Assembly (NCBI RefSeq): GCF_000743945.1
Contig: NZ_CP009238.1
Location: forward strand, 1,364,001 to 1,428,000
DNA from: Basilea psittacipulmonis DSM 24701
GTDB lineage: Bacteria > Pseudomonadota > Gammaproteobacteria > Burkholderiales > Burkholderiaceae_B
DNA length: 64,000 bases
Direction of reading: 5' to 3'
A program made the translations under genes and the position numbers. This document shows positions 8,026 through 44,490 of this stretch, one piece after another. The notes under the pieces are model-generated. The model searched no databases. It had not been told where the DNA came from and worked only from the letters and a program-made list of their open reading frames with translations. Every line of letters starts with the position of its first letter. Position 1 is the stretch's first letter.

Positions 8026-8060
8026 TGACTTCTTCACACAAAAATTCGCGAGTTAAACTA

Positions 8061-21059: not shown

Positions 21060-21190
21060 TTCTCTTTTTAACCACAACTTTATCAGGTAAACTCACAATC
21101 AGTTCTTTTTACAACCTATAGTTCCCCTACTAAATGATTTTAACTATCATCAACGATACTAACAATTATATAAAATCCCTGACCATCTTG

Positions 21191-21563: not shown

Positions 21564-24500
21564 TTACCAAATAAATCCAACACCTGCTCCAGCAGCATAT
21601 TTACCTCTTGAATCACGGCTAGCATTCGCTTTTAGAATCACTTTACCGTTTTCCATCGTACTAGAAACACCGACTGCAACAGCATTTTGACCTCTGTAAG
21701 TTGCTCCTGCAATCGCAAAGACACTCTTACCAGGCGCATATACTTGAGGTAAGCTAGCCACAGCCACTGCATTAGCTACTCCCGCTTTCATATCTTTTTC
21801 AAGTCTATTTAAGTTACCACTAATGGTATTAATCGCTTGAGCATTCTGAGCCACTTGCATATTCGTTGCATGTAACTGGCTACCATTAATCGCATCGGTA
21901 CTGGTGGCACTAATTTCGCCTGCTGCCACATTTTGAATACGGCGTTCAGAACCAGAAGCTCCCACACTAACCGCTCCAGTCGCTGTTGCACCTGCAAAAC
22001 CAGCATAAGTAATATTACCTACTGTTGCTGAATCTACCGTACCCGTAGTACCCGCTGTTGTCGTGTTTCCAGCATTACCACTACGATCTTTTGCGACTGT
22101 TCCTACCTTAGAACCCTCTGTAATGGCAGTTTCCGCTCCCAATGCTACTGAGTTATCAGCAGTCACGGTAACATTATTACCTACTACAAAGGTATTATTA
22201 GTAGATACCGTATTGTCATTACCTAGAGCATAACTAGCATCACCTGTCACAGTATTTGGATCACCAATCGCACCTGAATGGTTACCACTGACTACATTAC
22301 CCGTACCAATTGCCAAAGACTGCGTACCTTTTGCTTGAGAGCCATCACCCAATGCAATGGACTGAGCACCCGTTGCTTGTGCAGATGTACCTATCGCTAC
22401 CGCATTCTGACCACTTGCTTGTGTTTGGTTACCCAAAGCCACCGAATTTTCGCCTGTCGCATTCGCTTCTGAACCCATCGCTATCGCATTTTTAGCATCG
22501 GCTACAGCTTTGTAACCAACGGCTGCCGAATAAGATCCTGATGCACTAGAGTCAATTGTATTTTTATCTGAACCTTGGGTAGATTTCGTACCATCGTTGA
22601 CATGGAAGAACTTAATACCCTGTTCATTCATACGATAAATCGCAGACATCATGCTATTATCTGTCGTTTCTGTATTGCCTGAAACATCATAAGTCGTCAA
22701 GGCTTGTGAAACCGTTAATTTACTACCATCAGCGTTGGTATAAGGCGTTCCATCTGCTTTGGTAATATTACCGTCCTCATCTGTCCCCATCGATTTCTTG
22801 ATGTCGTCTGCAACCAGTTTCAACTGATCTTCTGTCGCCGCTTGTCCGCTAGTTATATCATCAGCATCCCAAGTGATATTGGTCAAACCAGAAACCGTAC
22901 CATTCGTACCATCAACCTTCACAGGTTTTCCATCAGTCGAACCGATCGTCACCCTATCAGACAGTTTAATATCCACTGTATTAGTACCACTATCAGAGGT
23001 ACCAATCAAAAGATTATTATCAGAACTACTGAAATTCAAGGTTTCGCCTAGTTTAACCGTATCTTCGGTAGAATCATCAGTATTACCTTTAACTTTGAAA
23101 CCTGTGTCTTTTAAATCAGACAGTTGATCGTTAAGTTTCGTGTACACATTTTTCAAATCGCCCACGTTAGCCACGTTGTTCAAAGCATCACCTGTTGCAT
23201 CGGCAATATCCGTACCATCCAAACCACTGGCCACATTAGTAATTGCATTACCACCGTTATTCAAACCAGAGCTGGTTAGGCTTACTGTTTTTGATGGATC
23301 AACGGTACCATCGTCTTTGACTGGCGTAATAGTGATACCATCACCCGTTACCGCTGTGGTGGTGTCATTAGCATCTTTGGTTGTTAAACCATCATTATTC
23401 ACCGTTGTATTGCCTGCTGTTAAGCTACCATCTTTGCTCAAATCAACGTCTTTAGCCAGTTTAACGGTCAAGGTACCGCTACTATCAGCCACGACACCGA
23501 TATTATCTTCAGTCAATGCATCCGTATCCGCACCGCCTTTAATCGTTACGGTATTGCCTAAAGCGACTGTTGCATTACCAGAGTCACCTGCAAACGTTAA
23601 GCCTTTATTCGTCAAAGAATTAGCTACGTTATTAATCGCATTCACCAAATCGCTACCGGTCACAAAGCTATTATCCGCTGTACCACCATTACCATCAGTG
23701 GCTTTAACCGTACCATTGGCATCAGTGGTCAAAGTCGCCTTGTTCACCGCTACTTGAATCGTCGTGACATTATTAGCTGTTGTACTGCTCACTGTCGTGC
23801 CGGTACCATTTGCAAAGTTAACCGTTTTATCTTTCGTAATGGTTTGATCATCGCTACCGTTAGTCTGCAAGGTCCATTTACTCGCATCACTAATCGCATC
23901 ATCCATCTGTTGCTTATTCACAGCATCAGTAGGATTAACCGCCTTGCCTACATTGGTAATCGTATTACCACCGTTATTCAAACCCTTATCCGTTAAGCTT
24001 ACCACTTTCGAGGTACCATCTGTACCATCAGCTTTTGTCGGTGTAATCGTCATTCCATTGCCATTAATAACGGTATTGGCACCACTTCCTGTAAATGTTG
24101 CACTCGTCAAACCGCTCAATGCTTTAGCCAACGCAATGGTAATCACACCCTTAGCATCCACTTGGGTCATAATATTTTGACCCGCATCAAAATCACCCCA
24201 AATCTTATTGCTGTCTGAACCTTTGATCGTGATTTTACTGTTTAATTTTGCTGCATAATCAGTACCGTCATTGGCCGCAAAACTTAACCCATCGTCCAAT
24301 GTCGCCACGGTATGCGAGGTGCCATTCGCATCTGCATACACCATACGCGTTGTGCTGTTACCATTCACATCTTTGGTACCATCCGCACCGTTAGTCGCAT
24401 CACTGCCATTCGGACCGACTACGCTCAACGCCGCTTTAGCCGAACCATCCGCACCATTTTGACCATCTTTACCATTCAAGGTCACAGAATTAGCCGTTAC

Positions 24501-27500
24501 ATCATCCGAGGTACTAATCATAATCTTACCTTCAGACTGGCTCAAATTAACGTTTTTGCCAGCGATAAAGGTGACGGTATCATCAGCACCAATCTTCTCG
24601 GAACTACCTGTTGCAGTACCCTCTGTTTTATCAACCGCCAAAGTCCAAGTCGCATTATTAGCCTTGTTCACTTCCTCTTGAAGCGTGAACAACTGACCAC
24701 CTGTCACCACGTCTTTACTACCCTTAGCAACCGTACCATCAGCAATATTCGTCAGTTTAGAACCGCCAAGATCTAACCCCTTGCCTGTGTTAGTGAAAGT
24801 AGTGGTATTAGCGCCATTACCCACCACTAATTTATCCGTCGCATTCACCGTACCACCGGTCAAGGTACTCGCTGTTACCGTGCCAGAAGCCGTAATGTCT
24901 TGCAATCCAGTCAAGGATTTAGCTAGTTTCACGATTAGGCTGCCTGAACCATCTGACACGACACCGATATTACCATCGCTTAGATCAGACTCAGTTGTAT
25001 TACCACCCTTGATCGTCAAGGTTTCACCTAGTTTTCGGGTAGAAGCTGTACCCGTATCGCCCTCAAACGTAATACCAGCTAAAGCATTTTGCCATGCTGC
25101 TTTATTCGCATCCGTTAAGTTAGATGCATCCGCTTTGGCATATTCTGTGGCTAAATTAGTCGTACCAGCAGCCGCTTTCAACTTATCACTATCGATACTT
25201 AATGTGTAGCTATTCGCCGTTAGATCGTTACTTTCTGTTTTGTTCAAAGTTAAAATACCTGTGCTATCACTGACATCTACCTTAGTTTTTGCTCCCGTTA
25301 CCGCATCATAAACCGCTTGAGCAGAAGCTACTTTATTCGTGTTGTTAGCAGTAGTATTATCAATCGCTTCTGCTACATTCACACTAATCGCAAAGTTTTT
25401 CGCTGCACCGTTTGAACCACCTGTTGTGGTCACGGTTGTGTAGTTATTGCCATTTGCGGTCACCAACCCTGTGACCACATCTTTACCAGCGTTGTTCAAG
25501 TTGCTTAGACTTTGATCTGCAGCATTGTCTAATTTATTTTTCGCAGTCGTATCTAAATCAATCGTAACTGTTTGATTGTTCACTGTGGTAGTAATATAGC
25601 CAGAACTACCATTGATCGATAAGGTTTGATTTTTCAGATCGATACTGCCCGTTGTACGGTTATCTCCAACCATATTCAATACCGAACTTAGGGAACCTGT
25701 TGCATTAGATACCGCACTATTAATCGCTGTGGCAATATCATTAGCTGTGACAAAAGAGTTGCCTGTATCGCCAGCCGTTACATTAGAACCATTCGTGGTT
25801 AATGTCGTGGTATTAATATCGTATTTCACAGTAGAGATACCTTTATTAGCACTCACACTTGCTGTCGTACCCGTACCATTGACAAAATTCACGGTATCGC
25901 CTGAAGCGACTTTAGTGCTAGTTCCGCTATTGGCTTGGATATTCCAACCTTTATCTAATTTTTGTTGAATATCGTATAACTGACCGCCTGTTACCGCATC
26001 TTTACTACCAGATGTTACTGAACCATTAGCAATATTCGTCAATTTAGAACCACCCAAGTCTAAGCCGTTGCCAGTGCTAGTCAACGTCGTGGCATTATTA
26101 CCATTACCCACTACTAATTTATCCGTGGCGTTCACGGTACCGCCAGTTAGTGTATCCGCTGTTACCGTGCCTGTAGCAGTGATATCTTGCAAACCTGTTA
26201 AAGATTTAGCCAGTTTCACGGTTAGGTTGCCTGCACCATCTGATACCACGCCGATATTATTATCGCTTAAACTTGATGCTCCACCCTTGATCGTTAAGGT
26301 TTCGCCCAGTTTTCTGGTAGAAGCTGTACCTGTGTCCCCCTCGAACGTAATGCCTGCTAAAGCATTTTGCCAAGCAGTTTTATTTGCATCCGTTAAGTTA
26401 GATGCATCTGCCTTAGCGTATTCAGTGGCTAAATTAGTAGTACCCACGGCTTCTTTTAGCTTGGTGCTATCAATACCTAATGTATAGTTGTTAGCATTTA
26501 GATCCGCACTTTCTGTTTTGTTCAAAGTTAAGATACCTGTACTATCACTCACTGATACCTTAGTTTTCGCCCCAGTTACCGCATCATAAACCGCCTGTGC
26601 AGAAGCCACTTTATTTGTGTTATTAGCAACGGTATTATCAATCGCTTCCGCTACATTTACGCTAATCGCAAAGTTTTTCGCCACACCGTTTGAACCACCT
26701 GTTGTGGTCACCGTTGTGTAACTATCGCCATTTGCAGTGATCAAACCAGTGACCACGTCTTTACCCGCACTAGTTAAATTGCTCAGATTGTTATCCGCTG
26801 CATTATCCAGTTTCGTTTTTGCTGTGCTATCTAAATCAATCGTCACCGCCTGACCGCTGGCACTGGTAGTAATATAGCCAGAGGTACCGTTGATGGCGAG
26901 TTTTTCAGATTTTAAATTCACACTGCCAGAAGAACTATTATCTCCTGTGATATTCAACACCGAACTTAACGAACTTGTTGCACTATTAATCGCATTAGCA
27001 ACACTTTCCGCTGTCGCAAAGTAATTACCTGCTTGACCTACTGTTACATTAGAACCATTCGTCGTTAATGTGGTAGTATTCACATCATACTTCACAGTAG
27101 AGACACCATTATTAGTACTCACGCTCGAAGTGGTACCGTTACCATTGGCAAAATTCACTTTGCTTGTCGGAGCAACATCGGCTACTTTAGTGCCATTACC
27201 CTGAATTTCCCAACCGGTAGTCGCATTATTTAATTTTGTTTGAATATCAGAACTTAATGCAACAGTATAAGTCGTTGCACCATTGTTATCTACTGATGAA
27301 GTAACGTTTAAGCCTGTACCCTCTGTTACATTTTCTTTTACCGCAGATGCCATTGTCGTTAAGGCGGTCGCTAAATCAGAAGCGGTCACAAAGGCATTAC
27401 CTGACATACCAGCTGTAATACTGGTAATACCGCCATTGCTAGTATTAGGCGTAACCGTTAAGTTTGATGTATTCACATTAAAGGAAACATTGGCACCATT

Positions 27501-29132
27501 CGTTGCAGTCGCTACATTCGCAGTCGTGCCATTACCATCTACAAAATTAACTTGGTTATTTGCTTTAATAGTCGCCACCTCAGTGGAGCTATTATTCCCT
27601 ACTTTCCAGCCATTGGATAGAGTGTTCACCGTGCTTTGCAAGGTTGAAATATTATTTGCATTCGTTGTAATATTCGCGGTGTTGTTAGCAATATTACCTG
27701 CGTTAGTTGAAATATTCGCCGTATTATTAGCGATATTTTGTTTATTGGTCTCAACTTGTTTCAAAGTAGTTTTAACCGAATCCGATAGATCTAATGTGTA
27801 ATCCGTCGTTTTAACGCCATTAGCATCTGTAGTGGGCGTAGTCGTTAAAGCAAGGTTAGTGGTATTAGCACTGACCGTTGTAGCATTAGCGTGTACAGTA
27901 TAAATAGCCTGACCTGTGGCTCCTGTTGTTTGTTTAACCACGGTATTTGAGCCAGCTTGAACCTCTGTTTTCGCTGCCGCAATCGCTTCATGAACAGTGG
28001 ATTTACCTGTATTACCAATATTAGTCATGGTAATCGTACCATCAGCACCCACAGCAGCATTACCGCCTAAGACACCTTTAATACTGCTCACCACATTACC
28101 TAAGTTCGTTGCAACCTCATAAAGCTGGCTGCCATTAATGGCATCAGTTGAAGAACTAGAAACACGCCCAGCTGCCACATTGGTAATGGTACGTTCACTA
28201 CCCGAAGCCCCCACGCTTACCGTTGAGTTAGGGTTAATGCCTGCAAAATTATCATATGTCATTCCACCTACCTCAAAATTTGAGGTACTGACTGTGGCGG
28301 CAGTGCTGGAATTTGCGCCTAAGGCAACACTATTTACATTGCTTGCCGTTGCGTTGTAACCTAACGCAAGTGCATTTTCTGCTGAAACATTTGCTACAGC
28401 CCCCAATGCCGTAGCATTTACAGCAGAAGCCATACTTCCTGCTCCTAACGCCGTAGAAGAGGTTTCAGTCGCTACTGATCCTGTACCAATCGCTACCGCC
28501 ATGATACCAGAAACATTAGAATAAATGCCCAAAGCCAAAGATAAGTCTTTTGTAGCTTGAGCGCCCATACCCACAGCAATACTACCTATTGCTGTAGAAT
28601 TAGTTCCAAGAAAAGAAATCGTTTTTTTAGTATAAGTAGTTAATAAAGAACGAACATCAGCAGAAAGTCCAACTGTATCATTCCTTGCATCACCTATATC
28701 ATCACCACCAATGGCAATGCTACTATAACCTGTTGCATTAATATTATTTCCTAAAGCTATGGCTTGACTGGCCTTAGCATTTGTAAGACTGCCTAAAGCA
28801 AGTGCTTGATCTCCCTCAGCTATAGCATTATTACCTAGGGCCACTGCACTATTAGTAAAACTCCCTGATGCTTTACTTCCCTTTCCAATTGCAATATCCA
28901 AATTGCTTCTTGATGCACTACCACCATCTCCTGTATAAGCCAATACCAGATTGCTCGCAAAGCAACTACTCAACACCAATGAAGCTATAACTGTTTTTCT
29001 TAGCGATATTTTTTTCTGTAAACTTGTCTGTTTTTCCACGCTAGTGGCTTTTTTCTGTCCCTTCGCCAACTCTGAAGTTACCACAAATTGTCCGGTTACT
29101 TTACTCCAAATAATTTTATAAATCTTATTCAT
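21564..29132 (-). CDS. Trimeric autotransporter adhesin TAA3 (2522 aa) with two head domains
   Basis: Start chosen at the ATG of MNKIYKIIWSKVTGQFVVTS, preceded by AAGGA; twelve upstream in-frame codons are rejected because the ESPR starts here. Hydrophobic core about residues 47-62, likely cleavage after VLA (residue 65). A first YadA-like head spans about residues 70-300, with AINGSQL necks. A heptad coiled coil at about 462-496 carries a sequon in nearly every heptad. Two copies of a 426-residue (1278 bp) stalk unit cover about 27255-25978 and 25977-24700. A second YadA-type head lies close to the membrane at about 2190-2345 (GSEANATGENSVALGNQTQA and similar). The last ~100 residues form a canonical anchor (YRGQNAVAVGVSSTMENGK, ending GVGFIW). 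Surface adhesin, ligand unknown. It differs from TAA1/TAA2 in stalk content and ends normally. It is separated from TAA2 by 504 bp and probably transcribed alone. Confidence 0.95.
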   Translation of the reverse strand: MNKIYKIIWSKVTGQFVVTSELAKGQKKATSVEKQTSLQKKISLRKTVIASLVLSSCFASNLVLAYTGDGGSASRSNLDIAIGKGSKASGSFTNSAVALGNNAIAEGDQALALGSLTNAKASQAIALGNNINATGYSSIAIGGDDIGDARNDTVGLSADVRSLLTTYTKKTISFLGTNSTAIGSIAVGMGAQATKDLSLALGIYSNVSGIMAVAIGTGSVATETSSTALGAGSMASAVNATALGAVANVSAENALALGYNATASNVNSVALGANSSTAATVSTSNFEVGGMTYDNFAGINPNSTVSVGASGSERTITNVAAGRVSSSSTDAINGSQLYEVATNLGNVVSSIKGVLGGNAAVGADGTITMTNIGNTGKSTVHEAIAAAKTEVQAGSNTVVKQTTGATGQAIYTVHANATTVSANTTNLALTTTPTTDANGVKTTDYTLDLSDSVKTTLKQVETNKQNIANNTANISTNAGNIANNTANITTNANNISTLQSTVNTLSNGWKVGNNSSTEVATIKANNQVNFVDGNGTTANVATATNGANVSFNVNTSNLTVTPNTSNGGITSITAGMSGNAFVTASDLATALTTMASAVKENVTEGTGLNVTSSVDNNGATTYTVALSSDIQTKLNNATTGWEIQGNGTKVADVAPTSKVNFANGNGTTSSVSTNNGVSTVKYDVNTTTLTTNGSNVTVGQAGNYFATAESVANAINSATSSLSSVLNITGDNSSSGSVNLKSEKLAINGTSGYITTSASGQAVTIDLDSTAKTKLDNAADNNLSNLTSAGKDVVTGLITANGDSYTTVTTTGGSNGVAKNFAISVNVAEAIDNTVANNTNKVASAQAVYDAVTGAKTKVSVSDSTGILTLNKTESADLNANNYTLGIDSTKLKEAVGTTNLATEYAKADASNLTDANKTAWQNALAGITFEGDTGTASTRKLGETLTIKGGASSLSDNNIGVVSDGAGNLTVKLAKSLTGLQDITATGTVTADTLTGGTVNATDKLVVGNGNNATTLTSTGNGLDLGGSKLTNIANGSVTSGSKDAVTGGQLYDIQQKLDKGWNIQANSGTSTKVASGDTVNFVNGTGTTASVSANKGISTVKYDINTTTLTTNGSNVTAGDTGNSFVTANDIATAINSAVSNATGSLSSVLNMVGDNRTTGSIDLKNQTLSINGSSGYITTTVNNQTVTIDLDTTAKNKLDNAADQSLSNLNNAGKDVVTGLVTANGNNYTTVTTTGGSNGAAKNFAISVNVAEAIDNTTANNTNKVASAQAVYDAVTGAKTKVDVSDSTGILTLNKTESNDLTANSYTLSIDSDKLKAAAGTTNLATEYAKADASNLTDANKAAWQNALAGITFEGDTGTASTRKLGETLTIKGGNTTESDLSDGNIGVVSDGSGSLIVKLAKSLTGLQDITASGTVTASTLTGGTVNATDKLVVGNGANTTTFTNTGKGLDLGGSKLTNIADGTVAKGSKDVVTGGQLFTLQEEVNKANNATWTLAVDKTEGTATGSSEKIGADDTVTFIAGKNVNLSQSEGKIMISTSDDVTANSVTLNGKDGQNGADGSAKAALSVVGPNGSDATNGADGTKDVNGNSTTRMVYADANGTSHTVATLDDGLSFAANDGTDYAAKLNSKITIKGSDSNKIWGDFDAGQNIMTQVDAKGVITIALAKALSGLTSATFTGSGANTVINGNGMTITPTKADGTDGTSKVVSLTDKGLNNGGNTITNVGKAVNPTDAVNKQQMDDAISDASKWTLQTNGSDDQTITKDKTVNFANGTGTTVSSTTANNVTTIQVAVNKATLTTDANGTVKATDGNGGTADNSFVTGSDLVNAINNVANSLTNKGLTFAGDSGNATVALGNTVTIKGGADTDALTEDNIGVVADSSGTLTVKLAKDVDLSKDGSLTAGNTTVNNDGLTTKDANDTTTAVTGDGITITPVKDDGTVDPSKTVSLTSSGLNNGGNAITNVASGLDGTDIADATGDALNNVANVGDLKNVYTKLNDQLSDLKDTGFKVKGNTDDSTEDTVKLGETLNFSSSDNNLLIGTSDSGTNTVDIKLSDRVTIGSTDGKPVKVDGTNGTVSGLTNITWDADDITSGQAATEDQLKLVADDIKKSMGTDEDGNITKADGTPYTNADGSKLTVSQALTTYDVSGNTETTDNSMMSAIYRMNEQGIKFFHVNDGTKSTQGSDKNTIDSSASGSYSAAVGYKAVADAKNAIAMGSEANATGENSVALGNQTQASGQNAVAIGTSAQATGAQSIALGDGSQAKGTQSLAIGTGNVVSGNHSGAIGDPNTVTGDASYALGNDNTVSTNNTFVVGNNVTVTADNSVALGAETAITEGSKVGTVAKDRSGNAGNTTTAGTTGTVDSATVGNITYAGFAGATATGAVSVGASGSERRIQNVAAGEISATSTDAINGSQLHATNMQVAQNAQAINTISGNLNRLEKDMKAGVANAVAVASLPQVYAPGKSVFAIAGATYRGQNAVAVGVSSTMENGKVILKANASRDSRGKYAAGAGVGFIW
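24700..27255 (-). repeat. Two tandem 1278-bp repeats within TAA3
   Basis: Matching landmarks such as the segment encoding ADASNLTDAN.(T/A)AWQNALAG recur exactly 1278 bp (426 codons) apart, for example at plus-strand 25081 and 26359. The copies are highly similar at DNA level but not identical. Unit edges are approximate. Confidence 0.8.
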
Positions 29133-29382
29133 TCTTATTTTTCCTTCAAAATTGCCTAAAACAGGCAAAATAAAAACCTCTTAATTTTCTATATCTAAAA
29201 AAATGAGAATTATATATAAAAGACGATAAATCTAGCTTTTATCTACCTAATAACGAGGATAATTTATACACTTTGAAACAATTTCGTTGTAAAATAAACA
29301 CAAAACTAAATATAAAAACAAAATAAACATCAATTTTTTCATTCTTTTATTTAACAATATGATTAAGTTATTTTCTTTTAAC

Positions 29383-30231: not shown

Positions 30232-30237
30232 TATCAT

Positions 30238-34708: not shown

Positions 34709-34798
34709 CTCTTACTGAACCTATTTATTTTACGTTTGCTTCACGCAGACTATTTCATAAAATGCTTTTTGTCCTTTCTCAAAGGTTTTGTAGCAGGT

Positions 34799-34960
34799 GT
34801 CTGTGAGAATCAAGATTTGGCGGTGTTTAACGACTGATTCCTCTCCGCTTAGACCCGTTGAGAATCAAGATTTCGCGGTGTTTGACGACATCCCTCTTCA
34901 CCTAACCCCGTTGAGAATCAGGATTTCACAGTGTTTGACGACTGATTCCTCTCATTAAAG
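34799..34960. repeat. Three tandem copies of a ~54-bp intergenic repeat
   Basis: The core GAGAATCAAGATTT...GCGGTGTTTAACGAC recurs at 34805, 34860 and 34913 (spacing 55 and 53 bp), with point differences. Located in the 292-bp gap between the polA start and the tautomerase stop. The gap holds nothing else except the terminator at 34966-34993. Confidence 0.8.
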
Positions 34961-34965
34961 CGAAG

Positions 34966-34993
34966 AAAAAAGCGACCTAAAAAGTGTCGCTTT
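34966..34993 (-). terminator. Terminator of the dapA-bamC-tautomerase operon
   Basis: AAAGCGAC / GTCGCTTT stem (34969-34976 with 34986-34993), 9-base loop, followed on the minus strand by a T-run, just after the tautomerase stop at 35001. Confidence 0.85.
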
Positions 34994-35000
34994 GATTGTT

Positions 35001-35339
35001 TTAACAAAACGTTCCATCCACTAAATCATGTATCATGATTCGATATGACGATTTTTCGATATGCAACGTTTTTTCTATCACATCAGACAAAGCGGCCAAT
35101 AAAGCCTGCTTTAACGCCAACGACCGCCCCTCTTTCAAATTAGTATTCACCAACACTAAAGGTGCCGCCATCTTTCCTGCCACAAAAGTTTGATGTGAAG
35201 ACAATATATTTAACGTCACCACAATACGTTCAACAGGGGCTGACAAAGACGTTTCTGTCGCCTTTGCCAAACCCTCGATTAAAGCTTCTTGCTGAGCGAC
35301 ATCCAGTGCCAAATTCGTTTGAACTTGTAAAAAAGGCAT
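35001..35339 (-). CDS. MIF/tautomerase-superfamily protein
   Basis: 112 residues, the length of macrophage migration inhibitory factor-type tautomerases. The conserved start MPFLQVQTNL places Pro at position 2, which becomes the catalytic N-terminal proline after methionine removal. A region around NILSSHQTFVAGKMAAPLV and the C-terminal YRIMIHDL strand fit the two beta-alpha-beta repeats of the fold. Such enzymes form trimers and tautomerise keto-enol substrates; the physiological substrate is unknown. The start codon overlaps the bamC stop by one base (TAATG), so it is translationally coupled to bamC and is the last gene of the dapA operon. The family match is good; a specific function is not claimed. 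Confidence 0.75.
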   Translation of the reverse strand: MPFLQVQTNLALDVAQQEALIEGLAKATETSLSAPVERIVVTLNILSSHQTFVAGKMAAPLVLVNTNLKEGRSLALKQALLAALSDVIEKTLHIEKSSYRIMIHDLVDGTFC

Positions 35340-36481
35340 TAACGTACTCCCAATTTTTCAAGCACCACGGTCAGAATACGACGTTTAGTCAACACATCAT
35401 CTTCTTTATCTGCCGAAATCGTCACAGATGTTTCATTCGTGGCCAGTTCTTTGAAATTCAAGGTGTAAGGCAATGGTTTGACATTTCCATCCGATCCAAA
35501 TAAACGCAATATTGCATTACCATCTTTACGTTTTTTACCATTGTCAGTATCCAAATAACGTACCACGATTGCACCTGCTTGTTCATCAGCCGAATCAATG
35601 GTAAATCCAGCATTCGTTAAAGCTTGTTTTACCGCTGCAAAACTATCTTTGACATTATGATGTAACACTAATACATCACCATTTAAAGTCGCTTCACTTG
35701 GGCTGACCGCATGATTTGTGGCAGACGTTGCAGATTGTTCAGCCGCCTGCATTTTTGCTTTGGCCGCTTCTCTGTTCTCACCCAAATACACCATCAACTG
35801 TGTCAATACCTGTGCATTTAAATTTTGGTCCTCGTCAACTGGCACCCATTTAAATTCCACATCATTTTTCAAACGTGACACATCTTTTTCTTCGCGTCTT
35901 TCGTGAGAAACATAAACTCTTGTTTTGCCCCCATCACGTTCAAAACGTGTTGTAAAGCGGTCTCGAATACCACTATCAGCCATCGCAGAACCTAGGAAAC
36001 CCAAAGCTCTTTGAATGAATCCAGGATTAATGCCTGCTTTATTCTCAGCCCAATCTGTCACTAAAATACCTGCTTCTGGCTGATTTTTAGCAATCGTAAA
36101 TCCCTCTGATGTCCAAAAAGACTCCACTTTAGGATAGACTGTATCGGCATCGGCATCCACCACCAATACACGTCTATCACCTTGACGTTCAATCTTCATA
36201 CCTTTGATTTCAGGCAATACCGCCACTCTTGAGCCAACCTTTGCTTGTTGATTTTGTAAGGCCTGATATTCATTGTACGTCGCATTCTTAGGCATCACAT
36301 ACACAGGCTGGATTTGGCTAGAAGACATACCAGGTGGCAATGATAACGGATCCGCTGTTACAGTGCTTTTGTAATTAATGGCATTCTCCGCATCAAACGT
36401 CTCTTGTATCGTATCGCACGCAGTCAACGCCAAAACGGCCGATAATGTAAGGGTCAATTTTGATAATTTACCAATATACAT
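35339..36481 (-). CDS. bamC: Outer-membrane assembly lipoprotein BamC (NlpB)
   Basis: 380 residues with a lipoprotein signal, lipobox LTAC, and mature Cys near residue 22. An unstructured N-terminal stretch with DPLSLPPGM is typical of the BamC segment that binds BamD. Two helix-grip domains follow (about residues 95-210 and 265-380), each with a conserved VLVVDADADTVYPKVESFW- or AAVKQALTNAGFTIDSADE-like start. Part of the BAM complex that inserts beta-barrel proteins, which would include the TAA anchors and the Opa-like protein of this window. It lies 20 bp downstream of dapA, the usual dapA-bamC order in proteobacteria. AAGGAA precedes the ATG. Confidence 0.93.
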   Translation of the reverse strand: MYIGKLSKLTLTLSAVLALTACDTIQETFDAENAINYKSTVTADPLSLPPGMSSSQIQPVYVMPKNATYNEYQALQNQQAKVGSRVAVLPEIKGMKIERQGDRRVLVVDADADTVYPKVESFWTSEGFTIAKNQPEAGILVTDWAENKAGINPGFIQRALGFLGSAMADSGIRDRFTTRFERDGGKTRVYVSHERREEKDVSRLKNDVEFKWVPVDEDQNLNAQVLTQLMVYLGENREAAKAKMQAAEQSATSATNHAVSPSEATLNGDVLVLHHNVKDSFAAVKQALTNAGFTIDSADEQAGAIVVRYLDTDNGKKRKDGNAILRLFGSDGNVKPLPYTLNFKELATNETSVTISADKEDDVLTKRRILTVVLEKLGVR

Positions 36482-36501
36482 ACTGTCTTTCCTTATGAAT
36501 C

Positions 36502-37401
36502 TTATAAAATACCTGCTACCCTCATGGCAGCACGCACGACATTTTTATTCTCTTCACGCATACCTACCAATGGTAAACGATAGCCTAACTGCGTCAAGCC
36601 CAGTTCTGCAACCGCCCATTTTACAGGAATTGGATTCGCTTCTACAAACAACGCTTTATTTAAATCGCACAAACGAGCATTTAACGTTCTAACAGTCGCC
36701 ACATCGCCCTCGTACGCGGCCATACACAAAGCGTGCATTAAAGCTGGTGCTACGTTAGCCGTCACCGAAATATTCGCTGTAGCACCCAGTAAAATCAATG
36801 CTGCCGCCGTGGGATCATCCCCACTATAAACCTCAAACTCATCAGATTTATAAGCTAGCAATTCCGCACCTTTTGCCAAATCGCCTGTCGCATCTTTAAT
36901 CCCAAGCACATTAGGCAATTCAGCTAATTTTAAAATCGTTTCATTAGTCAAACTGACCACCGTGCGACCTGGGACATTATAAAGAATCACAGGCAAATCA
37001 CTTGATTCAGCAATCGTCTTAAAATGCTCATAAAGTCCAGCTTGCGTAGGTTTATTGTAGTAAGGCACCACGCTTAAACCCGCCGTTGCACCCGCTTTAG
37101 CCGCATGCTTATGCAAACGCACGGCTTCTTTAGTAGCATTGGCCCCCGTTCCAGCAATGACTGGCACACGTCCATCCACATATTCTACCGCTAATGCAAT
37201 CAATTTCTCATGTTCGTCAAAGTCTATTGTCGGCGACTCACCTGATGTACCCACCACCACCAAACCATCTGAACCTTGTTCAATGTGCCAATCAATTAAC
37301 TTCTTATAAGCCTCATAATCGATATTACCAGCATTATCCATCGGTGTCACAAGAGCGGGAATACTACCTTTAATCACAGGCGTATAGACTTCATTAGACA
37401 T
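36502..37401 (-). CDS. dapA: 4-hydroxy-tetrahydrodipicolinate synthase
   Basis: 299 residues, standard for DapA. Condenses pyruvate with aspartate semialdehyde in lysine and peptidoglycan (diaminopimelate) synthesis in the cytoplasm. Visible motifs: [10 protein letters not shown] (substrate loop), YNVPGRT with the catalytic Tyr near residue 140, and GIKDATGD with the Schiff-base Lys near residue 168. First gene of dapA-bamC-tautomerase. AAGGA lies 6 bases upstream of the ATG. A fragment of a methyltransferase gene begins about 125 bp upstream of the start, so its promoter must lie in that short interval or within the fragment. Confidence 0.97.
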
Positions 37402-37527
37402 AAAAAATCCTTACATTACTTGATACATCTCTGCAATTTTACAATGTTTAAAATCGATTTTGGTTTCATGCCCCTATCCGTGCTATTTTCGTTTATTGAC
37501 AGACAGAGTGAGTGTGAGTAGTTAGTT

Positions 37528-37618
37528 ATCAAAATCCCAAGCCTATCAGCAATTCGGTAACAGCGTTGCGATTCCCGTGTTAAAAGCCTTGTTAAAAGAA
37601 ATTGAAGCGATTCAATGA
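37528..37618 (+). pseudogene. 3' fragment of a duplicated C5-methyltransferase gene
   Basis: These bases reproduce, with two silent-position-like changes, the last ~29 codons of the methyltransferase at 37870-38838 (SQAYQQFGNSVAIPVLKALL to the TGA stop). No start or catalytic region is present. It is the left part of a 172-bp direct repeat. A minus-strand open frame of 83 codons covering it is an antisense shadow. Confidence 0.88.
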
Positions 37619-37699
37619 GGATAAGACGAGGATTAAAGTGATTCAATGCTGAGGCCAAGAGATTCAATGAGGATAAAGGTGGCGGGTTGAGGGGGATTC
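37528..37699. repeat. Left copy of 172-bp direct repeat (methyltransferase end plus tRNA-Ser 3' end)
   Basis: Matches 38748-38919 with three mismatches in 172 bases, offset 1220 bp. Its last 20 bases (37680-37699) equal the 3' end of the tRNA-Ser gene, including the CCA, and then identity stops at GATTC. The rest of the gap to 37869 is AT-rich upstream sequence of the methyltransferase with short GATTCAATGAGGATAA-like repeats. Confidence 0.95.
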
Positions 37700-37869
37700 A
37701 ATGAAGATAAGGTGGTTAATTATTTTGTTAAAATAGCATTGCTTTTGCTTATTCAATCACTAAAAATGCACGGAATTACACAGTATTCAACGTAAAGGTG
37801 GGACACCTGATCCAACGTCATTACAATTTAAAATAAAACCTTTATCTTTATTCACTGAATAACACACGT

Positions 37870-38838
37870 ATGAACCTTAAAGATCTGACTTTTATTGACT
37901 TATTTGCAGGAATTGGTGGCTTTCATCAAGCACTAAGCAGTGTGGGAGCAAACTGTGTGTATGCCAGCGAGTGGGATAAGCATGCCGCAAAAACTTATTA
38001 CGAAAACTATCACATCATGCCAGTAGGTGATATTACACAGATAAAAGCGGAAGATATTCCCACACACGACATTTTATGTGCAGGTTTTCCTTGCCAAGCT
38101 TTTTCTATTTCTGGCAAACAACGCGGTTTTGAAGACACAAGAGGTACTTTATTTTTTGATATCGCCAGAATTGTGGCACATCATCATCCAAAAATATTAC
38201 TTCTGGAAAATGTTAAAAATTTGGTAAAACATAATAATGGCCACACATTAAGCACCATTGTTTCTACTTTAAAAGAGCTAAAATACGATGTTTACTATCA
38301 GGTGTTAAATGCCAGTCATTTTGGTGTTCCTCAAAATCGTGAACGTATTTATTTCGTAGCATTTCGACAAGATCTAAATGTAAAACGGTTTCATATGCCT
38401 AAACCTCCTCACACACCTGTGACGTTAATAGATTTTTTAGAGGCACACCCCGACATTCGCCCGATTACTCGATCTGATATTTCCATTAATAAATCATATC
38501 AAGCAGAAACAGATATGTTTGGCAATCCTATCGCACCGAATCGTCCTATTCAAATCGGTTTTTTAGGCAAAGGTGGCCAAGGCGAACGTATTTATCACCC
38601 TTTAGGACATGCGATTACATTATCTGCTTATGGAGGTGGGGTTGGAGCCAAAACTGGTTTATATCAAATCAATGGACAAATCAGAAAACTAACACCCAGA
38701 GAATGTGCTAGATTACAAGGCTTTCCAGACAACTTCAAAATCACTGCATCAAAATCCCAAGCCTATCAGCAATTCGGAAACAGCGTTGCGATTCCTGTGT
38801 TAAAAGCCTTGTTAAAAGAAATTGAAGCGATTCAATGA
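37870..38838 (+). CDS. DNA (cytosine-5) methyltransferase, HhaI-like (predicted GCGC)
   Basis: 322 residues with all core C5-methyltransferase motifs in order: FIDLFAGIGGF (SAM binding), GFPCQAFSISGKQ with catalytic Cys75, ENV at 113-115, QNRERIYF at 155-162, RKLTPRECARLQGFP, and QQFGNSVAIPVL. The target-recognition segment at 230-264 (GFLGKGGQGERIY...AITLSAYGGG) closely resembles M.HhaI, including Gln237 and Arg240 that read GCGC in that enzyme. GCGC specificity is therefore a reasoned prediction. No restriction endonuclease is encoded next to it, so it is a solo enzyme here, possibly regulatory or anti-restriction. It sits beside tRNA-Ser inside a direct repeat, suggesting acquisition or duplication at that site. 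Confidence 0.95.
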   Translation: MNLKDLTFIDLFAGIGGFHQALSSVGANCVYASEWDKHAAKTYYENYHIMPVGDITQIKAEDIPTHDILCAGFPCQAFSISGKQRGFEDTRGTLFFDIARIVAHHHPKILLLENVKNLVKHNNGHTLSTIVSTLKELKYDVYYQVLNASHFGVPQNRERIYFVAFRQDLNVKRFHMPKPPHTPVTLIDFLEAHPDIRPITRSDISINKSYQAETDMFGNPIAPNRPIQIGFLGKGGQGERIYHPLGHAITLSAYGGGVGAKTGLYQINGQIRKLTPRECARLQGFPDNFKITASKSQAYQQFGNSVAIPVLKALLKEIEAIQ

Positions 38839-38919
38839 GGATAAGACGGGGATTAAAGTGATTCAATGCTGAGGCCAAGAGATTCAATGAGGATAAAGGT
38901 GGCGGGTTGAGGGGGATTC
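38748..38919. repeat. Right copy of 172-bp direct repeat
   Basis: Spans the last ~30 codons of the intact methyltransferase, its 61-bp spacer and the first 20 bases of the minus-strand tRNA-Ser gene (3' end). See the left copy at 37528-37699. Confidence 0.95.
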
Positions 38920-38987
38920 GAACCCCCGAAACGTTTCCGTTTACACGCTTTCCAAGCGTGCGCCTTCAGCCACTCGGCCATCGACCC
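38900..38987 (-). tRNA. tRNA-Ser(GGA)
   Basis: 88 nt with an encoded CCA. The D arm begins GGCCGAGTGG, the anticodon stem CACGC/GCGTG holds the loop TTGGAAA (anticodon GGA, reading UCC/UCU), a long variable arm is present, and the T arm is GGGGG-TTCGAAT-CCCCC. The acceptor strands GGGTCGA and TCAACCC pair except for a C5-A68 mismatch. The 3' 20 bases are duplicated upstream of the methyltransferase. Confidence 0.95.
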
Positions 38988-39062
38988 AAGCCCAATATTT
39001 TAACCGTTATTAACTCGATACACAAGCCGAGTTTTTATTTGAGCATTTTCTATTTCGCCCAA

Positions 39063-39093
39063 TAAAAAAGAGGGTTATATTCAATAACCCTCT
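39063..39093 (-). terminator. Terminator of the Opa-like gene
   Basis: AGAGGGTTAT / ATAACCCTCT perfect 10-bp stem (39069-39078 with 39084-39093), 5-base loop, T-run on the minus strand. It lies 29 bases after the stop. Confidence 0.9.
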
Positions 39094-39121
39094 CCTTATC
39101 GCTACAACATCAGCGATTTGC

Positions 39122-39940
39122 TTAGAATCGGTACGTTACACCAACACGAGTAGCAATATTGTGTTCAAGTTTGATCTTGCCACTGTAATCGTTATAAGCA
39201 GATAAACGAATGCTTCCAAACACTTTGTTATATTCAATCGAAGCATCTAAAGAGAGATTATTTGTTAGATGATATTGCGTACCTGCAATCAAGCCTAAAC
39301 CAAATAAGGTTTTAGTTTTTGAATCACTGAACTTGACTGTTTTATCAGAAATTTGTGCCTTTTCTAAAAGTGCATTAACCACATCATCAAATTTTGCTGT
39401 AATATTGGCTTCAGCTTTTACACGATTTAAAGACGCACGAACGCCTACATAAGGTGTCCATTTACGATCCAAATCAAAGTCGTAAAAGAATGACACGCCT
39501 AAAGATTGAGCTTTAACTTTACCCCAACCATAAACATCAACAGGAACTTCTTTTTTAACTAATGCCAAATAACCGTCCACATCAGTTTTATATTGAACAA
39601 TACTAGGTTTCAGAGCTACAAAATAATCCCATAGCTTCCATTCGTCCGCATTTAATGTCGTTCCTGTTTTATATTCTGATTTTTTTGCTTTACCCATGTC
39701 TGTATAATCAACCGCGATGCGATATTGACCAAAATCATACCCTACCGAAAGACGTGGAGAGAAGTTTGATCCAGACCCAGAACGACTTTCATTACTGAAG
39801 TTATTGCTTCCGTGACCTTTGCCTGAGATATAAGACCAGCCTAGTTCAGTAGAAACGTAAATCCCCCCCCCCGACTGTGCAACTGCAACATTGCTAGCGA
39901 AAGCGAGGCCTACTGCGGAAACTAAAATGAGTTTTTTCAT
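39122..39940 (-). CDS. Opa-like (opacity family) outer-membrane beta-barrel protein, phase-variable
   Basis: 272 residues from the ATG of MKKLILVSAVGLAFASNVAV at 39940, preceded by GGGAG; 35 in-frame codons upstream are rejected because they would place the signal peptide internally. Signal peptide cleaved near AVA-QS (residue 22/23). The mature protein shows alternating beta-strand character (RLSVGYDFGQYRIAVDYTD, LGVSFFYDFDLDRKWTPYVG) and ends in GVTYRF, a BAM C-terminal signal. This resembles the eight-stranded opacity/porin family of Neisseria-like bacteria, which bind host receptors; the ligand here is unknown. Codons 24-27 contain a G10 run that is in frame now; slippage would turn the protein off. 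Single-gene unit with its own terminator. Confidence 0.85.
   Translation of the reverse strand: MKKLILVSAVGLAFASNVAVAQSGGGIYVSTELGWSYISGKGHGSNNFSNESRSGSGSNFSPRLSVGYDFGQYRIAVDYTDMGKAKKSEYKTGTTLNADEWKLWDYFVALKPSIVQYKTDVDGYLALVKKEVPVDVYGWGKVKAQSLGVSFFYDFDLDRKWTPYVGVRASLNRVKAEANITAKFDDVVNALLEKAQISDKTVKFSDSKTKTLFGLGLIAGTQYHLTNNLSLDASIEYNKVFGSIRLSAYNDYSGKIKLEHNIATRVGVTYRF
39863..39872 (-). repeat. Poly-G (G10) tract in the Opa-like gene
   Basis: Ten C on the plus strand, read as TCG-GGG-GGG-GGG directly after the signal peptide. Position and length are classic for slipped-strand phase variation. The frame is open with 10 bases. Confidence 0.92.
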
Positions 39941-40192
39941 AATATACTCCCATATAAAATAAAATATATTAACATTTGTTTCATTAGAAACAATACCCCG
40001 TATTTTTAACACAAAAATACAAATAAAGTGTGAAATATTATTCACTTATCTTTAAAAAAGAGATTTATTATACTTTATTTTTTTTCGCATTGTAACAACA
40101 TAGCTGACCGTGGCTTTCAACATTGATTCTGGTGTCTGAAACGCATAAAATACCGCTTAACTACTGCTTTACTAAACTAAAATAGGATAAGT

Positions 40193-40762
40193 ATGATTCA
40201 AGCTATTTCTTTAGATAAATACTACCGTTTGTTAAATATCGGCCCAACGGTATTAGTGTCATCTAAGCACGAAGAGAAAGAAAATGTCATGGCGGCCGCA
40301 TGGGCTGGCATCGTGGACTTTTACCCCACCCCTAAAGTCAGTGTCATTTTAGATAAATCGAGTTACACACGCGAGTTAATCGAAAAAAGCGGATATTTTG
40401 CATTGCAAATTCCAGTAGCTCGACAAGCGGAAATGGTGTTAGCATTAGGCGAAATCAGTGGTAAAACACATCCTGATAAACTTAGGACTTGTAAAACTGA
40501 ATTGTTTTACCGAGAACACGACAACATCCCTTTAGTCAAAGGCTGTGCAGGCTGGATTTTATGCGAACGTTTACCGCAAACAGACAATGAACAACAACAC
40601 GATCTATTCATCGGCAAGGTGATAGCATGTTATGCGGATGATGAGATTTTTGACGGTCACTGGAAGTTTGAAACGGCCGATAAAGGTTGGCGAACCTTGC
40701 ACTACGTTGCAGGTGGGCATTTTTACACGATTGGCGATCCCTTAATCGTAGAAAAAAATTAA
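40193..40762 (+). CDS. Flavin reductase-like (FMN-binding split-barrel) protein
   Basis: 189 residues that match the DIM6/NTAB flavin reductase-like family in length and layout. An N-terminal strand region PTVLVSSKHEEKENVMAAAW precedes a conserved DKSSYTRELIEKSGYFAL segment (flavin-phosphate-contacting in relatives) and a C-terminal GGHFYTIGDPL. Members bind FMN and use NAD(P)H to supply reduced flavin or reduce small substrates in the cytoplasm. The partner enzyme is not evident. It stands alone on the plus strand and is followed at once by a terminator. The preceding TAGGATAAGT gives a modest ribosome binding site. Confidence 0.82.
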   Translation: MIQAISLDKYYRLLNIGPTVLVSSKHEEKENVMAAAWAGIVDFYPTPKVSVILDKSSYTRELIEKSGYFALQIPVARQAEMVLALGEISGKTHPDKLRTCKTELFYREHDNIPLVKGCAGWILCERLPQTDNEQQHDLFIGKVIACYADDEIFDGHWKFETADKGWRTLHYVAGGHFYTIGDPLIVEKN

Positions 40763-40773
40763 TTTTCATCATC

Positions 40774-40809
40774 AAAAAAAACGGATACTTATTCAAAGAT
40801 CCGTTTTTT
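40774..40809 (+). terminator. Terminator of the flavin reductase gene
   Basis: AAAAAACGGAT / ATCCGTTTTTT stem with a 13-base loop and terminal T-run, 12 bases past the stop. Confidence 0.9.
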
Positions 40810-41027
40810 GATTACACCATCACCCACTCTACATCCTCACAAAACCTCACTCTCCACCCATCCTTTCTATCACCCACCTCTCCATCTTCTCCATATCAAG
40901 TATTTAACCTCACTCTACATCCCTCATCAACCCTCATTCTTGAGAGTCTTTTTCATCACCCCAATAAAAAACGTTCATCCCATCATTGCTGATAAGATGA
41001 ACGTGTGACTCGTGTCAATCGAATCAA
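40810..41027. other. G-depleted intergenic stretch
   Basis: Plus strand 40815-40950 is almost free of G and consists of CATC, CTC and CACCC words. Predicted short open frames here are compositional artefacts. The right end holds the glycosyltransferase terminator. Confidence 0.6.
40965..41004 (-). terminator. Terminator of the N-glycosyltransferase gene
   Basis: ACGTTCATC / GATGAACGT stem (40971-40979 with 40996-41004) followed by a T-run on the minus strand, 24 bases after the stop. Confidence 0.85.
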
Positions 41028-43061
41028 TTATTTTTTGGAACGTTTAGATGTTCTTTTACCTGTCGATTTTTTCGTAGTCGTTTTGGTCGCAACAACACCT
41101 TCTTTGTCCATCGCGGCAGATCCTTTATCCATCTCAACACTTGCCTGAGTCGAGCTTGTCTCTGATGTCGCTGGTTTTTCTGATGAGTCGGATGCTAAGG
41201 TCACCTTATTATCTTTTGCCCATTCTTGTAATTTTGCATATAACACTTGACCCAATGGACGAGGATCGCCTGTAAATAAGGTTTTCAGGCCATTATTCTC
41301 AATAATCTGTTTACGTAATTGCAAACGTTCCTCATGGTGTTCGGCCAAATAAATCGCATTTTCAATGTATTGTTCGATTGTTTTCGCCACTAACCAATCA
41401 GGTAATTTCAAGCGTTTAAACAAGGCTTCATCAATATGCTCATGCACTTCATCGCCTGTTTTGCACACGCCTACCAACCCCAATGTCACCATATCAATGA
41501 TACCGTTAGTATTGCCAAATGGGAATGGATTTAACATCATATCGCATTGTTCCAATATCTTTAAGTATTGGTCATACGGTTTATGTGGATGAGCCATCGC
41601 ATCATCTCCCAAATAAGTTTTAATCAATCTTTCAACGTAAGGATGAACAATACCTGTTGACTGACCCAAAGCAAAATGAAAATGCACTTTGACTTTTGCA
41701 CGATCGCGAATAATTCTCAATGTTTCTAAAAATTGCGGATTGATTTTCATGGTGGTGGCCGCAATACCAATCTGCACCACTTCTGGACGTTCTCTTAATT
41801 GGATATGAATATCTTTTGGTAAAGCACTTGACGGTACATAAGGCAAAGCATCTTTAGGCAATCGCAACAAGGTTTCACTAAAGCAATCTTCAGATCCCAC
41901 GTAGTCATCTTCAACCACAACATACTCAATATAATCCGAATGCGTAGTGGCTGGATGGCCTAACGCCACGACTTGAATAGGTGCCAAACGTGTGTTACTC
42001 GCATAAATAGTATATAAGTGCATACCAATACTAGGCATATAAAGCACCGCTACACCTTTGCTTTCACACAATGCTTTTATCTCTTCAAAGTTTTGATAAA
42101 AATCATTATGCGTTAAAGGATAATATTCATCAAAGATATGTGTGGCGGCTTTATCAACGTTATAGTCGCCCATACCGATGACATGGAAATGTTCTTTTGC
42201 GGCAACGATGGAAGTTGAATGGGTTCGGTAAATCGAATGATAGGTATTAAAGTGTTCTAGCAATACCAACATCACGGGCTTGCCTTGATGATAGCCTAAC
42301 GATTTGATGTTTTGACGGTCTTCCCAACCCAATGAAAGAAGATGTCGACGAATCAAATGATTTAAAGACTTTTTGACATCATGTTTATTTTTGGCGGTAT
42401 CGTAGCTACAATGCATATACACATCATGAATGATACCGTTGGGCAAAAGATGTAAATCAGGAAAAGCATCGAGTTTATTTGATGACAGCCATTGCAAGAT
42501 AGCGGCACGTTTTGAGAATGCACCCGGTGTGCCAATAAATCGAGGCGATTGTAAGGCAAAACACAAACTAGCACATGTCAACGGATCGATCTCCCAAGCC
42601 TTATCTAATGACAAGACAACGTTTGATTCACCCGTATATAAGATGCAAAACTTAATCAATGCTTTGACTGAATTTTCAATATGAATATCGTCTGGATCGT
42701 TCGGTTCAGGATTCACGTTAAAAACACGCAAAATATGATCCGCATTCACAAAAGGCGATGATGAAAATATATTACTCAACCAACGATGATAAGTGAAAAA
42801 CGTGCGTGCACCCGCTGGCGTAATTTCTAAATTAGGATCTTGGAATAATTTTGTAATCGCTACCGCTACACGCGTACAAAAATACACCATCGTGTCAGTA
42901 GGCAACACCGATAACTGTTGTGGAACATCTATTTCGATGTTAGCAATGCTTCCGAAATTATTATCTAATTCGCCTAAAATATTAAATAATTCTTTGCATG
43001 CTTGTTCGTAATGTTTAGCATCTACTTCTTTTTCAAATCGATTAACACTTGCTTTTTTCAT
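41028..43061 (-). CDS. HMW1C-like cytoplasmic N-glycosyltransferase (GT41)
   Basis: 677 residues. An N-terminal all-alpha domain (about 1-230) is followed by a GT-B catalytic region. Signature stretches of the HMW1C / A. pleuropneumoniae NGT family are plain: LAPIQVVALGHPATTH, EYVVVEDDYVGSEDCFSE, GIAATTMKINPQ with the UDP-sugar-binding Lys near residue 439, NPFPFGNTNGIIDMVTLG, and NNGLKTLFTGDPRPLGQV. These enzymes transfer a hexose from UDP-Glc or UDP-Gal to Asn in N-X-S/T sequons in the cytoplasm before export; known targets are HMW1-type and trimeric autotransporters. The TAAs of this window are the obvious candidate substrates. The last ~60 residues are a low-complexity Ser/Thr/Lys tail ending KRTSKRSKK, extra to the ~620-residue relatives. 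AAGGAAG precedes the ATG. It follows the Sel1 gene by 138 bp on the same strand. Confidence 0.95.
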   Translation of the reverse strand: MKKASVNRFEKEVDAKHYEQACKELFNILGELDNNFGSIANIEIDVPQQLSVLPTDTMVYFCTRVAVAITKLFQDPNLEITPAGARTFFTYHRWLSNIFSSSPFVNADHILRVFNVNPEPNDPDDIHIENSVKALIKFCILYTGESNVVLSLDKAWEIDPLTCASLCFALQSPRFIGTPGAFSKRAAILQWLSSNKLDAFPDLHLLPNGIIHDVYMHCSYDTAKNKHDVKKSLNHLIRRHLLSLGWEDRQNIKSLGYHQGKPVMLVLLEHFNTYHSIYRTHSTSIVAAKEHFHVIGMGDYNVDKAATHIFDEYYPLTHNDFYQNFEEIKALCESKGVAVLYMPSIGMHLYTIYASNTRLAPIQVVALGHPATTHSDYIEYVVVEDDYVGSEDCFSETLLRLPKDALPYVPSSALPKDIHIQLRERPEVVQIGIAATTMKINPQFLETLRIIRDRAKVKVHFHFALGQSTGIVHPYVERLIKTYLGDDAMAHPHKPYDQYLKILEQCDMMLNPFPFGNTNGIIDMVTLGLVGVCKTGDEVHEHIDEALFKRLKLPDWLVAKTIEQYIENAIYLAEHHEERLQLRKQIIENNGLKTLFTGDPRPLGQVLYAKLQEWAKDNKVTLASDSSEKPATSETSSTQASVEMDKGSAAMDKEGVVATKTTTKKSTGKRTSKRSKK

Positions 43062-44433: not shown

Positions 44434-44441
44434 GCACCCAT

Positions 44442-44473: not shown

Positions 44474-44490
44474 ATTCTTTGCAAATTAAT

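Follow-up and report, generated by a model that had tools for sequence, protein, structure and literature searches.

Introduction

Systems in which an orphan cytoplasmic N-glycosyltransferase (NGT) acts on trimeric autotransporters (TAAs) are already established: the orphan HMW1C homologues of Kingella kingae and Aggregatibacter aphrophilus are reported to act on TAAs (PMC9592894, PMC5303269), and some orphan NGTs are reported to modify TAAs encoded far away (PMC5303269; published statements here and below are drawn from parts of the cited sources). A review of HMW1C enzymes presents as open which proteins are targeted by enzymes without a co-transcribed tpsA gene, and how targets are chosen (PMC3983070). 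Here we analyse an ngt gene of this kind in Basilea psittacipulmonis DSM 24701, a bacterium described from parakeet lung with a 1.93-Mb genome of 40% G+C and YadA-like genes (PMC4028982), for which seven fibrillar-adhesin-like proteins are recorded (PMC8286594). The window, the whole stretch that was analysed, comprises 64,000 nucleotides (C1:1364001-1428000 of contig NZ_CP009238.1, here C1), and the genome is this single contig of 1,959,069 bases with G+C near 40%; coordinates without the prefix C1 are window positions. An initial annotation, made from the letters of the window alone, had noted the gene and proposed the TAAs encoded some 12 kb away as its leading substrates. Our analysis suggests that the enzyme likely glucosylates, in the cytoplasm and before export, Asn-X-Thr sites of selected TAAs, above all the one we call TAA4 and probably a second, TAA5, a reading to which we assign a probability of roughly 0.7.

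A full-length HMW1C-type glycosyltransferase

The gene at 41028..43061 on the minus strand is predicted to encode a 677-residue HMW1C-type cytoplasmic NGT. Its product scores 1057.5 bits against the NCBIfam model NF049992, 'UDP-glucose:protein N-beta-glucosyltransferase' (cut-off 1000), carries the Pfam domains HMW1C_N and HMw1_D2, and matches the NGT chains 3q3e, 8p0o, 8p0q and 8j30 at full length with E values of about 1e-277 to 1e-279; the alignments span query residues 3-618 with 3q3e, 2-618 with 8p0q and 2-618 with the A. aphrophilus NGT chain. We take 3q3e, an HMW1C-like glycosyltransferase, to be the Actinobacillus pleuropneumoniae enzyme. For AaNGT, Arg177, His214 and Asp215 are reported to read the Thr/Ser at position +2 of the sequon, and His276, Ser277, Arg280, Thr437, Lys440, His494, Asn520 and Asp524 to bind the UDP-sugar (PMC10507012). 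Judged by motifs and the alignment to these chains, the query keeps the sequon readers as Arg174, His212 and Asp213, and it keeps the UDP-sugar residues as His275, Ser276, Arg279, Thr436, Lys439, His493, Asn519 and Asp523. The general GT41 Pfam model Glyco_transf_41 (PF13844) gives no score on the query, unlike most of the 119 listed NGT relatives, for which it is annotated; the N-terminal domain, the curated model, and the sequon and UDP residues place the protein in the HMW1C-like subfamily of GT41. The gene is thus a full-length HMW1C-type NGT in which the sequon readers and nearly all UDP-binding residues are conserved, and the enzyme assignment of the initial annotation is borne out. AAGGAAG and a short spacer precede its ATG, and the genome also carries galU, encoding UDP-glucose pyrophosphorylase (370.2 bits against a cut-off of 326.8). 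The basic, Lys/Thr-rich C-terminal tail of the protein was considered as a novelty and rejected, as the 119 closest listed relatives bear tails of 13-71 residues with a median net charge of +10.

Sequon excess in TAA4 and, less surely, TAA5

Apart from its one NGT, the genome encodes seven proteins with YadA anchors (TAA1 to TAA7) and four with TPS domains (TpsA, the secreted partner in two-partner secretion, TPS). Raw N-x-S/T counts are high in the TAAs (88 in TAA4, 69 in TAA3 and 56 over all of TAA2); we rejected them as evidence, however, because TAAs rich in Asn, Ser and Thr hold dozens of sequons by chance. Counts were instead compared with composition shuffles, and repeats were masked as repeated 6-mers. 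Before masking, TAA1, TAA2 and TAA3 lie at chance level (observed over expected 0.96, 0.93 and 1.07, with 56 sites against 60 expected in TAA2 and 69 against 64 in TAA3), TAA6 at 1.20 and TAA7 at 0.87; the four TpsA range from 0.88 to 1.19, and the 22 other window proteins, pooled, stand at 0.83. TAA4 reaches 1.38 (z 3.7) and TAA5 1.61 (z 5.5). N-x-T z scores of the TpsA are at most 1.1. After masking, TAA4 has 51 N-x-T sites against 32 expected (z 3.8), its z staying at 3.3-3.8 across shuffle and masking variants (3.8, 3.5, 3.3, 3.7), and shuffles confined to 40 residues give 51 against 33 (z 3.7), with the mirror motif T-x-N at 28 against 34. The excess in TAA5 is inflated by repeats, masking of which leaves 25 N-x-T sites against 17 (z 2.0) and 44 N-x-S/T sites against 31 (z 2.7). 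Of TAA5 and TAA6, which align at 48% identity across some 3500 columns, TAA5 alone is N-x-T-rich. Sequon excess is limited to TAA4 and, less surely, TAA5, with TAA1 to TAA3 at chance; the many sequons that the initial annotation saw in the three TAAs of the window are there as raw counts, and rise above composition in one of the three, TAA4.

TAA4 lies at 21564..29132 on the minus strand (open reading frame to 29168) and has 2522 residues from a likely ATG at 29132; domain search places an ESPR at frame residues 13-55, followed by YadA head, stalk and anchor. Within region limits that we drew around Pfam matches, its 88 sites fall as 9 in residues 81-330 (the N-terminal head), 70 in residues 331-2220, 8 in residues 2221-2430 (a second head), 1 in the anchor and none in the signal part. 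Thr at +3 is said to favour NGTs (PMC10507012), and it follows 12 of 50 N-x-T sites in TAA4 against 21 of 189 sites with other first residues (p 0.035), a suggestive difference; among the TAAs of the calibration set below, the counts are 314 of 2130 where an NGT is present and 111 of 988 in Pasteurellaceae without one. Neither comparison was used as evidence.

Calibration on TAAs from other genomes

We calibrated these statistics on 138 TAAs: 66 from NGT-positive Pasteurellaceae, 53 from NGT-negative Pasteurellaceae and 19 from NGT-negative Burkholderiales. Among 140 Pasteurellaceae genomes, positive meant an NGT match at E≤1e-50, found in 94, and negative the remainder, 26 by complement only; genome G465 (48% NGT) and the genus g367 (58%) were counted as positive. 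Genomes whose NGT match was flagged with internal stops were left out, except G487 (one TAG; three TAAs). The TAAs, a subset of those in these genomes, were chosen by anchor score and frame length, blind to sequons, and some (at loci L117, L155, L165 and L167) extend to the end of a contig, so that they may be incomplete. They came in two batches, one of 35 positive TAAs, 25 negative Pasteurellaceae TAAs and all 19 from Burkholderiales, the other of 31 positive and 28 negative TAAs picked for within-genus contrasts.

In the first batch, the median N-x-T ratio was 1.55 in NGT-positive TAAs (n=35) and 0.98 in negative Pasteurellaceae TAAs (n=25; p 1.2e-7), with Burkholderiales at 1.07 (n=19); of the control motifs, the mirror motif, D-x-S/T and N-x-x-S/T were alike between groups, and K-x-S/T differed (0.80 vs 1.00, p 0.002). 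The second batch showed a difference in its upper tail, where N-x-T z≥2.5 was reached by 6 of 31 positive and 0 of 28 negative TAAs (Fisher p 0.025). Pooled per-genome medians were 1.53 for 47 positive genomes and 1.09 for 34 negative ones (p 1.1e-6), the mirror motif differing less (0.94 vs 0.83, p 0.017), and genus means were higher with an NGT in 10 of the 12 genera that have both states (p 0.016). With global shuffles, z≥2.5 occurred in 26 of 66 positive TAAs (26 of 63 without G487), 0 of 53 negative Pasteurellaceae TAAs and 0 of 19 Burkholderiales TAAs; the corresponding counts were 23, 1 and 0 under stricter masking and 25, 0 and 0 with local 40-residue shuffles. Counted by Pasteurellaceae genus, the excess appeared in 17 of 24 with an NGT and 0 of 17 without. 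The highest z among NGT-negative TAAs, again with global shuffles, was 2.3, which places TAA4 above all of them and TAA5 within their range. A strong N-x-T excess is therefore a one-sided mark that points to an NGT, and its absence does not exclude one, because only some TAAs of NGT-positive genomes show it.

A comparison with homologous segments, which uses no composition model and whose counts are not independent (the subjects are related and the segments overlap), led to the same result. Against aligned segments of 62 NGT-negative TAAs, TAA4 has 762 N-x-T sites to their 347 (2.20-fold), being higher in 55 comparisons and lower in 2; TAA5 has 1065 to 508 (2.1-fold), higher in 47 of 63 and lower in 12; and TAA1, TAA2, TAA3 and TAA6 hold 0.74-0.85 of the sites in their negative homologues (TAA3 0.78). 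Against segments of NGT-positive TAAs, the ratio is 1.43 for TAA4 and 1.20 for TAA5. Eight closely related loci of Pseudomonas type, one of them labelled Bowmanella, served as a positive control: the large adhesin frame that lies upstream of ngt in each has N-x-T ratios of 1.37-2.15, though z 2.5 is reached by 2 of the 8, and T-x-N, the mirror motif, is likewise elevated (1.09-1.50); 7 of the 8 adhesins carry a TPS domain, and the eighth is cut by a contig end.

Origin and surroundings of the gene

Among 60 relatives of the same family and order, 13 have a match at E≤0.001 and none an NGT of this kind: the best match, in G033, has 29% identity over residues 13-574, and the others are shorter, C-terminal and at 21-28%. 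In a class-wide draw, 4 of 369 genomes, this one included, match at E≤1e-100. The best 120 of 1873 protein matches, the query aside, share 61-68% identity, and those with an organism label are Pasteurellaceae. A quick tree (rows L050, L056 and L062 dropped out because a fragment had been taken as their frame; no Neisseriaceae row knowingly included) unites the query and 19 Pasteurellaceae rows (100*), with the query branching outside those rows (85, unstarred); long-branch warnings were raised, and the tree does not fix a donor. NGTs on plasmids (38-44% identity among the rows listed) and on genome contigs (42-45%, Avibacterium 58%) are more distant than the relatives from the protein search, and the Avibacterium copy seems to bear internal stops (row G456, which its anchor position suggests is the same genome). 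On the simplest reading, ngt is probably a lateral acquisition whose source was Pasteurellaceae-like. Co-acquisition of TAA4 with it is not supported, as the best match of TAA4 in the sampled set comes from a genome that lacks NGT (G469). Each of the six giant TAAs has better matches among Pasteurellaceae TAAs than among those of Burkholderiales, in a set that held 119 and 19, respectively.

Upstream of ngt on the same strand lie genes for a Sel1-repeat protein and SecA (43200-47172), ngt standing just 3' of both, and downstream lies a convergent flavin-reductase gene. Just past its stop, a terminator-like hairpin at 40971..41004 on the minus strand (a 15-pair stem and a T run) is a consensus match only, from a scan that found 4 such sites where shuffles give 2.5. 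Neither rimO upstream nor agt downstream was found among the neighbours, and no agt-like extender among the ngt neighbours scanned; in the genome, Glycos_transf_1 has one match over its cut-off (C1:740454) and one below. A C5-cytosine DNA methyltransferase is encoded at 37870-38838, with no evident restriction enzyme among the neighbouring open reading frames scanned. The Opa-like protein at 39122-40045, which the initial annotation had allowed as a further substrate, contains 5 sequons when counted from its likely Met, where 2.1 are expected (uncorrected P 0.038; the count rises to 7 with two sites that precede the likely start), mostly N-x-S, and makes no strong case as a client. The nearest TAA is 11.9 kb from ngt, in agreement with the distance first noted; this proximity is weak evidence, since published orphan NGTs act on distant TAAs. 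In three Pasteurellaceae loci of genus g335 (G444:C7, G446:C1 and G447:C39, the ngt match of G447 being flagged with a stop), ngt lies about 2.4-2.5 kb from a divergent TAA, a tighter arrangement than in this window.

The other adhesins are given here by their open-frame limits. TAA3 (8085..21077, minus strand, 4330 residues) has ESPR, YadA head, stalk and an anchor that scores just at the cut-off (22.7 bits), and TAA3 and TAA4 both show the extended signal peptide, head, stalk and C-terminal YadA anchor of type Vc proteins; anchors were detected in all seven TAAs. The giant TAA2 gene (C1:1359102-1372052, minus strand) has its 5' part at 1..8037 and runs past the window edge to end near C1:1359100, with its anchor at C1:1359111, and TAA1 follows at C1:1345865-1359028. 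TAA1, TAA2 and TAA3 are collinear tandem paralogues of about 4300-4400 residues each, with 32-34% identity end to end, and they are possibly one 39-kb transcription unit, since the gaps between their frames are short (about 70 and 30 bp). TAA5 (C1:1009156-1021143), whose N-terminal head repeats bear serial NAT/NAS sites, TAA6 (C1:1713732-1726322) and TAA7 (C1:790690-792102) lie elsewhere. Each TpsA adjoins a TpsB with ShlB and POTRA domains. Downstream of a 2600-residue TpsA (L040:2520-12123) are two near-identical tandem frames of 285 and 283 residues, the former without an NCBIfam match, which may serve the TpsA tip as immunity-like partners.

Discussion

Taken together, the sequon statistics make TAA4 the best-supported candidate client of the NGT and TAA5 a probable one. 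Beyond gene content and sequon counts, we infer the steps of a possible pathway from work on Kingella (PMC9592894) and A. pleuropneumoniae (PMC5303269) and from reviews (PMC8151025, PMC3983070): UDP-glucose, supplied via galU, would be the donor; single glucoses would be placed on N-x-T sites of TAA4, and probably of TAA5, while the passenger is still unfolded or folded only in part; and the glucosylated protein would then cross by Sec, trimerise, pass its own anchor and be displayed at the surface, where the sugars may make the passenger more stable or adjust adhesion, effects reported for Kingella Knh. For TAA1 to TAA3, TAA6, TAA7 and the four TpsA we predict sparse modification, or modification at chance sequons only. 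The expectation of the initial annotation that the TAAs lead as substrates is accordingly narrowed: TAAs are the likely clients, with the excess seen in TAA4 inside the window and less surely in TAA5 outside it, and not in TAA1 to TAA3. We further propose, as about an even bet and if anything slightly less, that an excess of N-x-T is an imprint of NGT clienthood that can be read from the genome, a cytoplasmic N-glucosyltransferase re-spelling a subset of the surface adhesins wherever it is present, and that here a laterally acquired Pasteurellaceae-like NGT may have re-spelled TAA4 and TAA5 and not their paralogues.

Several observations weigh against the selective glucosylation of TAA4 and TAA5. 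The z≥2.5 threshold was fixed after the data had been seen; in the second batch alone the medians were alike (1.12 for 31 positive and 1.17 for 28 negative TAAs, p 0.74); and two of the 12 genera with both states, g341 and g367, run the opposite way. The masked N-x-T z of TAA5, at 1.7-2.0, is within reach of NGT-negative TAAs, 3 of 72 of which have z≥2. Part of the TAA4 excess over its homologues is composition, because N-x-S (1.28), T-x-N (1.29), D-x-T (1.43) and N-x-x-T (1.62) rise there too, though less than N-x-T. In the enzyme, one UDP contact is changed, Lys494 replacing Ser495 of AaNGT, described as a uracil contact (PMC10507012); among relatives whose motif pattern was read, the position is variable (A/S/T/V).

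The alternative that most deserves attention, though we consider it unlikely, is that the NGT modifies all TAAs, and perhaps the TpsA and Opa-like proteins, at any exposed sequon, the excess then recording the age of the association and not a choice of client. NGTs read a short motif, TAA1 to TAA3 keep 52-66 unique N-x-S/T sites each after masking, and enrichment appears in only 26 of the 66 TAAs of NGT-positive Pasteurellaceae, all of which such a scheme would accommodate; it sits poorly with sequons at or below chance in TAA1 to TAA3 and the TpsA, and with the N-x-T deficit of TAA1, TAA2, TAA3 and TAA6 relative to homologous segments. We think it improbable, more so than indiscriminate modification, that the TAA4 excess is unrelated to the enzyme and simply follows from repeats, stalk motifs or a composition rich in Asn and Thr. 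TAA4 is indeed 10.5% Asn and 14.6% Thr, and its N-x-x-T is mildly raised (z 1.8-2.1) as well as high against homologues, but local shuffles preserve the N-x-T excess with no matching rise in the mirror motif, and z 2.5 is reached by none of 72 NGT-negative TAAs with global or local shuffles and by one under stricter masking.

That one of the four TpsA is the real client, in the classical HMW1 arrangement with ngt relocated and the TAAs as bystanders, appears the least probable of these alternatives, and very much so. The first published category of NGT acts on TpsA (PMC3983070), and with four TpsA/TpsB pairs in the genome the argument of the initial annotation from exclusion fails, even though the window, as it had stated, contains no HMW1-type two-partner adhesin. 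No TPS match lies in the 64-kb window, however; no TpsA lies within 360 kb of ngt, the nearest being 369 kb off; and the TpsA of this genome lack the sequon excess found in the ngt-adjacent Pseudomonas-type adhesins, an argument of moderate weight. We therefore favour glucosylation of selected TAAs, above all TAA4.

If the proposal of an N-x-T imprint is true, clients of orphan NGTs could be named from sequence alone; glucosylation of the selected TAAs would extend cytoplasmic N-glucosylation of TAAs to this lineage. With the N-x-T signature, the adhesins within a genome can be ranked inexpensively by how likely they are to be clients, and a genome in which enriched and unenriched TAAs stand together, as TAA5 and TAA6 do here, is a natural place to check it. 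A literature search, mostly of titles and the starts of abstracts, returned no earlier sequence test for NGT clients and no report of cytoplasmic N-glucosylation of TAAs in this lineage. What is new is a Pasteurellaceae-like NGT in a small genome of the Burkholderiales group, together with a sequence test that names its candidate clients.

Among described systems, H. influenzae HMW1ABC and TPS-linked NGTs such as EtpC (PMC3983070, PMC8151025) share the enzyme family and chemistry, but this window is without tpsA/tpsB and the TpsA of the genome are without sequon excess. The rimO-ngt-agt locus of A. pleuropneumoniae, with AtaC (PMC5303269), shares the enzyme family and a TAA as acceptor, whereas Sel1-repeat, SecA and flavin-reductase genes flank ngt here in place of rimO and agt. 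The orphan HMW1C systems of K. kingae and A. aphrophilus resemble this one in the enzyme family, in a lone ngt without a tps locus and in TAA clients, including distant ones; the B. psittacipulmonis system differs from them in belonging to another bacterial family and in that, of its several adjacent TAAs, only one or two show sequon excess, with clienthood predicted from sequence.

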